Shown: in pieces, positions 1,581 through 4,844 of the stretch
Position numbering within the stretch: position 1 is the stretch's first letter
How the letters are laid out: each line of letters starts with the position of its first letter
Assembly: GCA_026416035.1 (NCBI GenBank)
Contig: JAOAFY010000002.1
Location: forward strand, 1 to 32,519
Direction of reading: 5' to 3'
DNA: 32,519 bases
From: Coriobacteriia bacterium
Lineage (GTDB): Bacteria > Actinomycetota > Coriobacteriia > Anaerosomatales > Anaerosomataceae
Translations under genes and position numbers: made by a program
Notes under the pieces: model-generated
What the model was told of the DNA's origin: nothing
The model's input: only the letters and a program-made list of their open reading frames with translations
Databases searched by the model: none

Positions 1581-1724
1581 TCAGGCCGCGCTCGGCGCGA
1601 GCACCTTCCGTCCTTTGCGGCGGCGCGCTGCGATCACGGCTCGTCCGCCACGGGTCGCCATCCGGGCCCGGAACCCGTGCGTCTTAGCCCGTTTCCGGTT
1701 GTTGGGCTGGTATGTGCGCTTCAC
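1581..1724 (-). CDS. rpmH: 50S ribosomal protein L34
   Basis: A 47-residue, very basic protein beginning (V/M)[18 protein letters not shown] and ending in [10 protein letters not shown], the L34 pattern. I chose the GTG at 1724–1722 because the preceding GGAGG is well spaced and L34 proteins begin at MKRTYQP; the frame is open further upstream but without homology. It is the first gene of the operon running away from the origin and has a good promoter upstream (1774–1803). Confidence 0.96.
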
Positions 1725-1849: not shown

Positions 1850-2400
1850 GCCGGAAACAAAAACTTCGAAATCTGTTGATACTGTGGAAAACGCAGGATT
1901 CCATCGTGTGGAACCTGTGGACAACGCTTCGGGGCGCGTTGTTGGGCCGTTCAGCCCTCTGCTAGAATCGCCGCTGTCGCCGGGTCGGTCCCTGCCGGCC
2001 TGCCTCTTTGAAAAACCGCAGGTAGCGGCCACACAACGACGGCTCATCCCGCATACAGCGCCTCGTCGGGCGCAGCTTCCACCACATGCGGACGTACCCG
2101 CCGCCTCCCGGATCGTTCTATCCACAGGAGGGCGAGGTACGAGACCTCTTCTGACGCTGCCGAACTCCCGCTTTCCTGGGAAGGTAGTCCCGACGAGCGT
2201 ACCTTTGGAGTCCGGAAAGACTCATGGACGTCGGTTGTCCACAGATGTGGAAAGCGCTGTGGAAAGTCGCGGAAATGGCCTCGTTGCGGCTTCCGTGCGA
2301 GTGCTCGGGCGGGCCGCGCCCCGTCCGAGGCAAGCGTCCGCGCTGTCGCCCGGGAGCGCGGAGGTTGTGGAACGCCCTGTGGACAACGGTGTGGATTTCC
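1850..2400. other. oriC: Probable replication origin, DnaA-box array 1
   Basis: The gene-free stretch between rpmH and the next plus-strand gene holds many TTNTCCACA-like boxes. Reverse-oriented boxes (TGTGGANNN) start at 1883, 1907, 1916, 2246, 2258, 2366, 2378 and 2390. Forward ones lie at 2118–2126 (CTATCCACA) and 2235–2243 (TTGTCCACA). Boxes at 2366/2378/2390 and 2246/2258 are spaced exactly 12 bp, and 1883/1907 are 24 bp apart. The relatively A/T-rich stretch at 1853–1892, abutting the first boxes, could be the unwinding element. Position next to dnaA and the divergent gene orientation agree. Origin function is inferred. Confidence 0.85.
1939..1968 (+). promoter_or_regulatory. Candidate promoter reading toward the dnaA operon
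   Basis: TTGTTG (1939–1944), an 18-base spacer and the extended -10 TGCTAGAAT (TAGAAT at 1963–1968) form a plausible sigma-70 promoter on the plus strand. The transcript would start near 1975 and run about 450 bases through the DnaA-box array before the first start codon at 2427. Nothing else upstream of 2427 was as convincing. Repression by DnaA bound to boxes downstream would be a natural consequence but is inferred. Confidence 0.5.
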
Positions 2401-2426: not shown

Positions 2427-3257
2427 ATGAGACAGTTCTATGGACGCGTGGCGGCTCCGGTGCGCTCCAGCGCGGCTCCGCAACTCGAACAGTCCATCCA
2501 CCCGGCTCATAAGCGGTCGTCTCAGCAATCACCGCTTCGTGCCCGGATCGCGGTCTATGACACGCCGACCGCGCCGCCCCGGGTCGAGGAGGTCGCAGCC
2601 GGAAACCCCCGCGAGTTCATCGACGCGCTCGCGTCCGCCGTCTACGAGCTCGCGCGCGAGGCGGGCGGATCCATACCCTTCGTCGTCATCCGTGAGATCG
2701 CAGAGAACCTCATCCACGCTGACTTCCGTGAAGCGGTGGTGACCATCACAGATGGAGGGGACACCATCCGGTTCGCGGATCAAGGCCCTGGCATCCCGGA
2801 CAAGGAACGCGCATTCCTTCCAGGCTTCTCCACAGCATCCGGCGCTATGAAGTCTGTGATCCGGGGTGTCGGCTCCGGCCTGCCCGTCGCTCGCGAGTGC
2901 TTGTCGTTCTCTGGAGGCACGGTCACCCTCGACGACAACCTCGGTCGTGGCACCGTGGTCACCCTGCGCGCACGGCCGCGTCTTGACGTCCACGCTGCGC
3001 TTCCGGGGCCCGTAGACACGCACATGCGGTTGACGACTCGCCAGAAGCAAATCCTTTCGCTCATGCTCGAACTTGGCTCCATCGGTCCGTCTGCGGTCTC
3101 CCGGGAACTGGGGGTTGGACTGTCGACCGCCCACCGTGACCTGGAAGCGCTTGAACGCCTCTCGCTCATCGCCTCAGATGCGACTGGCAAGCGCTCCCTT
3201 ACCCCCCTCGGCGAGAGCATCCTCGCGCGTCTCTTCGATGGGGGGCTGGCGCCGTGA
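2427..3257 (+). CDS. GHKL-type ATPase / helix-turn-helix fusion protein, coupled to dnaA
   Basis: A 276-residue protein with two recognisable parts. Residues about 60–183 show the histidine-kinase/anti-sigma-factor-like ATP-binding fold: N-box EIAEN (90–94), G1 box DQGPGIPD (118–125), G2 box GVGSGLP (147–153) and a closing strand [10 protein letters not shown]. Residues about 200–270 form a winged-helix DNA-binding domain (TTRQKQIL, then [26 protein letters not shown]). No phospho-acceptor (H-box) domain or membrane segment is visible. The ATG at 2427 is preceded by GAGGGGG; the frame is open upstream through the origin but that part has no protein-like pattern. The stop overlaps the dnaA start (GTGA), so the two genes are probably co-translated. 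The specific function is unknown; a regulator of dnaA expression or origin activity is inference from position. Confidence 0.85.
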
Positions 3258-4627: not shown

Positions 4628-4655
4628 CAACCATGTTGTTTCATCGTGGACCGCT

Positions 4656-4796
4656 TGTGGAAAACCCGCTCATTCTGTGGACACCTACAGATCTTGATAT
4701 CTGGTGTGGATGTACGAGTGTTTCTTCCACAGCCGCAATCCTCATAGATACACCCGCTCCGAACTCGCACGACGGCCGTTTTCCACAGTGTCCACA
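4656..4796. other. DnaA-box array 2 between dnaA and dnaN
   Basis: The 217-bp gap between dnaA and dnaN carries boxes TGTGGAAAA (4656–4664), TGTGGACAC (4676–4684), TGTGGATGT (4705–4713), TCTTCCACA (4723–4731), TTTTCCACA (4779–4787) and GTGTCCACA (4788–4796). The last two abut each other. An A/T-rich stretch with the interrupted palindrome CAGAT–ATCTG lies around 4688–4703. In several bacteria the dnaA–dnaN gap is part of the functional origin, so this may be the second half of a bipartite oriC or a DnaA-responsive control region for dnaN. Confidence 0.75.
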
Positions 4797-4844
4797 GGCC
4801 TGAGTACTGTTACGGCATGAGATAAGAAAAAGAGAGGAACAGTC

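Follow-up and report, generated by a model that had tools for sequence, protein, structure and literature searches.

What is the protein encoded in the origin region of this Coriobacteriia bacterium, directly ahead of dnaA, and does it act together with DnaA, the initiator of chromosome replication? The window analyzed here, a stretch of 32,519 nucleotides (contig JAOAFY010000002.1), contains a gene for a 276-amino-acid protein that combines a GHKL-type ATPase domain with a C-terminal winged helix (Table 1). Its ATG start is preceded by a good ribosome-binding site (GAGGGGG), and its TGA stop shares bases with the GTG start of dnaA, the overlap that a preliminary description of this DNA had pointed out and that is present as GTGA. 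Within the genus, dN/dS is 0.11-0.29 for the gene as compared with 0.05-0.11 for dnaA, so that the gene is under purifying selection and evolves faster than dnaA. These values, together with the position beside dnaA in 115/116 distinct loci (see below), exclude a chance open reading frame. An assembly or reading-frame artefact was also ruled out, as congeners and distant relatives carry the same gene under purifying selection.

Table 1. Positions of the gene, its neighbors, the upstream elements and the protein domains in the window.
Feature	Position	Strand	Remarks
rpmH, conserved divergent neighbor	1581..1724	-	
Upstream DnaA-box region	1874..2398		best boxes 1883, 1916, 2118, 2235, 2378
Likely operon promoter, TTGTTG-N18-TAGAAT	1939..1968	+	conserved in alignment of 31 relatives
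Conserved triple box, TCCACA-N2-TGTGGA-N6-TGTGGA	2238..2263		
GHKL ATPase-winged helix protein gene, dnaA-linked family	2427..3257	+	276 aa
GHKL ATP-binding domain (predicted), residues 34-184	2526..2978	+	includes N-terminal beta hairpin (37-43, 52-58)
N box, residues 90-100	2694..2726	+	E90, E93, N94, H97 invariant
G1 box DQGPG, residues 118-122	2778..2792	+	31-member alignment
G2 box GVGSG, residues 147-151	2865..2879	+	31-member alignment
C-terminal winged helix (predicted), residues 201-272, MarR/IclR/TrmB-like	3027..3242	+	recognition helix near 232-244
GTGA, stop of the GHKL-winged helix gene overlapping the dnaA start	3254..3257	+	
dnaA	3254..4627	+	457 aa; Bac_DnaA 1.6e-72
Second DnaA-box cluster, dnaA-dnaN gap	4628..4844		best boxes 4656, 4779

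Homologues were found in 45/61 genomes of the order (E < 1e-50), in 218/248 Coriobacteriia genomes (207/221 among good genomes), in 157/396 sampled Actinomycetota genomes and in 32/299 genomes sampled from a phylum taken as Bacillota. They nearly always occur as one copy per genome, the exceptions being split matches in a few genomes. When gene surroundings were compared at 116 distinct family loci, dnaA came next, in the same orientation, in 115: directly in 112, and in three on chromosomes cut open at dnaA, their first gene; at the remaining locus the contig breaks off within the gene. The distance to dnaA is short, with a median of about 19 nt (by projection) and at most 60 nt in 97/112 loci. 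The usual order is rpmH on the minus strand, the DnaA-box region, the GHKL-winged helix gene and dnaA; wherever rpmH is found it lies divergently upstream, and in most lineages the intergenic region between it and the gene abounds in DnaA boxes. The preliminary description had proposed looking in relatives for the same two-domain protein ahead of dnaA, an expectation that was borne out very strongly and in two phyla.

This linkage bears on the simplest alternative, that the gene is a passenger of the operon, encoding a regulator or enzyme of some other process and held beside dnaA by gene-order inertia and shared expression. The neighboring rpmH and dnaN likewise keep their order, and the gene has been lost in some lineages, as a passenger might be; but we could not detect any strong family member away from dnaA in the searches made across two phyla, in very different genomes, and plasmids gave weak partial matches only and phages none. 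We therefore consider the passenger alternative very unlikely. A mobile or defence origin was rejected as well: phages had no match, and the one plasmid match examined was an ordinary kinase-type gene. PADLOC matches, considered as a possible defence link, are confined to CARF proteins and there to the winged helix.

The losses themselves are real. Of 20 Coriobacteriia in which the gene is missing, 12 have no detected dnaA either and in two dnaA is broken at a contig end; the other six (L171, L173, L177 and L187-L189) have dnaA and have truly lost the gene. The gene has been lost in at least three lineages and is therefore dispensable in some. Patristic distances in the family tree and the dnaA tree correlate at 0.60; the Bacillota form one clade in the dnaA tree and not in the family tree, which is short and poorly resolved and was not used as evidence.

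The gene lies at the replication origin. DnaA boxes were scored against TTATCCACA with up to one mismatch: five lie within 654 bp upstream of the gene and two in the dnaA-dnaN gap of 217 bp, as compared with a single one in the remaining 27.7 kb downstream. About 40 bp separate the end of the last good box from the start codon. The gene had been described as directly following the DnaA-box array; its position in the origin region holds, but the box region has two parts, and the gene lies within it and not behind a single array. On the closed chromosome of the congener G002 the gene is located at 1464.6 kb, and GC skew shifts from -0.077 to +0.043 as the locus is crossed; this change of sign falls between 1445-1460 kb and 1470-1485 kb, and the opposite switch occurs near 600-700 kb.

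Footprinting in 31 relatives revealed four conserved elements upstream of the gene: the rpmH promoter, the likely operon promoter with boxes on both sides, the triple box, and a block at 2003-2030 that contains no DnaA box. The operon promoter is missed by a simple consensus scan, in which TTGTTG/TAGAAT falls below the threshold. The rpmH promoter lies on the minus strand at 1774-1803, with the consensus TTGACAC and TATAATC among relatives. A known structured leader RNA was excluded, the one Rfam match in the window being a tRNA.

Among these conserved upstream motifs we found no gene-specific operator. The N2 pair of the triple box (TCCACA-N2-TGTGGA, at most one mismatch) occurs in 78/100 family loci, as compared with at most 27/100 for each of the other head-to-head spacings from 0 to 13 bp; a spacing of 14 bp gives 71 loci and represents the same triple box. 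As an operator this palindrome was ruled out, because exact copies occur in the gene-negative L172, L175, L176, L181 and L184. The triple DnaA box in the dnaA leader, which apart from the promoters is the best-conserved motif upstream, keeps its preferred spacing in most loci of the two phyla, and also in Actinomycetota that do not have the gene. The non-box block (CCTTGAAAAC..CAGGTA..GGCC), conserved just downstream of the operon promoter, was similarly discarded as a gene-specific operator, because L171 and L173 retain its CCTTGAAAAC..CAGGTA part despite having lost the gene; in these two genomes the promoter and the leader block are both still kept. A related sequence, AAAACCGCAGGTCAGAGGCTT, is present in L187-L189. 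Enrichment of 8-mers in four lineages returned mainly DnaA-box variants and parts of the promoter. No operator can thus be assigned, because both the triple box and the 2003-2030 block persist in genomes without the gene.

The upstream region also bears on the idea that the protein is simply an autoregulator, acting as a transcription factor on the dnaA operon and not directly on the origin. It is encoded by the first gene of the operon, behind a conserved promoter, and carries a MarR/IclR-like domain, as such a regulator might. However, the block near the promoter, surviving as it does in two gene-loss genomes, is not an obvious operator, and an ATPase domain would be unusual in a simple autoregulator, so that we regard this explanation as improbable.

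Sequence and model agree in placing the protein in the GHKL ATPase superfamily, with the N, G1 and G2 boxes and a predicted Bergerat-type alpha/beta fold. Pfam detects HATPase_c at residues 87-182 (E 8.4e-12), and in an alignment of 31 diverse members the nucleotide-binding motifs are invariant at E90, E93, N94 and H97 in the N box (ENLIHADF), at D118, G120, P121 and G122 in G1, and at G147, G149 and G151 in G2, as well as at G175. For the C-terminal part, Pfam winged-helix matches (IclR, DeoR and TrmB types; residues 198-268) all fall below the cut-off; L228, L232, R237 and L239 are nevertheless invariant, and the domain is present in 31/31 aligned members as well as in seven divergent Coriobacteriia forms. 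Mean conservation decreases from the N box (0.78) through the rest of the ATPase domain (0.66) to the winged helix (0.59), and is low in the linker (0.29) and the N-terminal tail (0.23). The linker varies greatly in length among homologues, up to well over 100 residues. The divergent Coriobacteriia forms keep both domains and are extended by long low-complexity linkers, with the winged helix still recognizable at the end; in L119, L120 and L123 the linkers separating the two domains are long and rich in proline and glutamine.

An AlphaFold2 model built with 31 homologues forms both domains (mean pLDDT 84; GHKL domain alone 89), with low confidence over the linker and most of residues 1-33, a segment modelled as disordered. 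Both Foldseek and VIA match the modelled ATPase domain to the Bergerat-type fold. Leading its fold list, three Z units above the next entry, is 3lmm (DIP2311; Z 15.0, 152/153 residues, rmsd 2.8), a match that takes in the extra N-terminal hairpin as well. Tied behind it are SpoIIAB (Z 11.8, rmsd 3.3 over 128 residues) and histidine kinases (Z about 11.7, rmsd 2.7 over 117 residues). 3lmm is the top match of the whole protein as well (Z 14.9, 208 residues, aligned over 34-266), at an rmsd of 9.9 because the relative arrangement of the domains differs. Next in the whole-protein list are MarR-type chains, which superpose on the winged helix over about 77 residues at an rmsd of about 1.6 (Z 12-13); in the model the C-terminal domain thus has a winged-helix fold. 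We found no HisKA-type Pfam match (DHp/phospho-acceptor domain) in the window protein or among the families listed for the 31 members, and no helical hairpin precedes the ATPase domain in the model. The architecture proposed in the preliminary description, with intact N, G1 and G2 boxes and a winged helix in place of a phospho-acceptor domain, is therefore upheld by Pfam, the 31-member alignment and the AlphaFold2 model.

Whether such a protein would act on DNA or on another protein is less clear. The helix-turn-helix core carries a net charge of -4 to 0 and the whole winged-helix domain a median of +1. Since neither an operator nor the charge of the core supports DNA binding, a mechanism akin to that of SpoIIAB/RsbW stays in play, in which the GHKL domain would bind or phosphorylate a protein (DnaA, a helicase-loading protein or a growth-state protein), the winged helix would serve as a protein-protein module, and control would be exerted by sequestration or phosphorylation without DNA binding. 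Consistent with this, SpoIIAB shares second place among the fold matches of the ATPase domain, the E90-x3-N94 spacing suits GHKL kinases, and production alongside DnaA fits a stoichiometric partner. However, the winged helix shows the pattern LSTAYRDLxxLE, which is characteristic of DNA-binding domains of the IclR/TrmB type, the best fold, 3lmm, is no anti-sigma factor, and besides dnaA there is no obvious partner gene in the loci examined. On balance we view this protein-acting mechanism as possible but rather doubtful.

The exclusive linkage to dnaA, the co-production, the intact nucleotide site and the position at the origin are most economically explained by a role with DnaA or the origin, and the linkage in particular gives good support to a dedicated role of this kind. 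Of the mechanisms for such a role we favor, tentatively and at somewhat less than an even chance, a DNA-acting one over the protein-acting one: an ancient single-copy partner of dnaA, in which an ATP-binding GHKL domain is coupled to a winged helix acting on DNA at the origin or the dnaA promoter. We infer ATP binding, dimerisation, the DNA target and the effect on initiation. The protein would be cytosolic and bind ATP through its GHKL domain, and would be made together with DnaA from a gene that overlaps dnaA, as here, or is closely spaced with it. Its winged helix would act on the DNA of the origin and dnaA promoter, the region that drives expression of its own operon. Most likely, the nucleotide state (ATP-bound, as compared with free or ADP) would change dimerisation or conformation and hence binding in the box region, and the altered binding may tune dnaA transcription, DnaA assembly on the origin, or both. 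Against the DNA-acting mechanism stand the lack of an operator, the non-basic helix-turn-helix core, the gene losses, the faster evolution as compared with dnaA and the sub-cut-off Pfam scores of the winged helix.

The family may represent a widespread class of initiation regulators that has escaped description, ATP-gated GHKL-winged-helix proteins that in deep Actinomycetota and a number of Bacillota lineages would cooperate with DnaA at the origin, with the known brakes YabA and Hda undetected in the sampled relatives; we judge this broader proposal equally likely to be right or wrong. Control of initiation is largely open outside a few model bacteria, and the family provides a concrete protein to test, encoded by a single-copy neighbor of dnaA in two phyla and probably present in gut genera. 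Were ATP sensed, it would be a second nucleotide-dependent origin factor beside DnaA and could link the energy state of the cell to replication.

GHKL ATPases and winged-helix regulators are both known, and no curated NCBIfam model reaches its cut-off for the window protein. The preliminary description knew of no characterised protein of this architecture at oriC. The domain pair itself has a precedent, in the same order, in DIP2311 of Corynebacterium diphtheriae (3lmm), an uncharacterised structural-genomics protein that we take to be of the COG2865 type, with the domains AlbA_2 - GHKL (HATPase_c_4) - winged helix; a GHKL-winged-helix partner of dnaA is apparently undescribed as far as we could find, no published account having turned up among open-licence papers. 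Sequence identity to 3lmm is 15-19%, the chains in 3lmm are 480-560 residues long, and the dnaA-linked family does not have the AlbA_2 (Schlafen) part, neither AlbA_2 nor HATPase_c_4 being among the families hit by the 31 members. With the anti-sigma factor kinases SpoIIAB and RsbW the family shares the GHKL fold, with a comparable ATP lid and N box, and 17/31 members match TIGR01925 (spIIAB) weakly. SpoIIAB, however, consists of one GHKL domain and has no winged helix, whereas the dnaA-linked proteins have an added N-terminal beta hairpin and a second domain, and are thus not stand-alone GHKL proteins of the SpoIIAB/RsbW kind. The catalytic domains of histidine kinases (HK853, CpxA, WalK) have HATPase_c with its N, G1 and G2 boxes in common with the family, which differs in having a winged helix instead of DHp helices, a phospho-acceptor histidine and a sensor or membrane part. 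Models of YabA and Hda gave nothing above the cut-off in 21 genomes of the order (20 relatives and the present genome), which leaves room for another regulator. Should the regulator reading be right, the family would do the same job as Hda, YabA and SirA, control of DnaA at the origin, and would do so with a fold unrelated to theirs.
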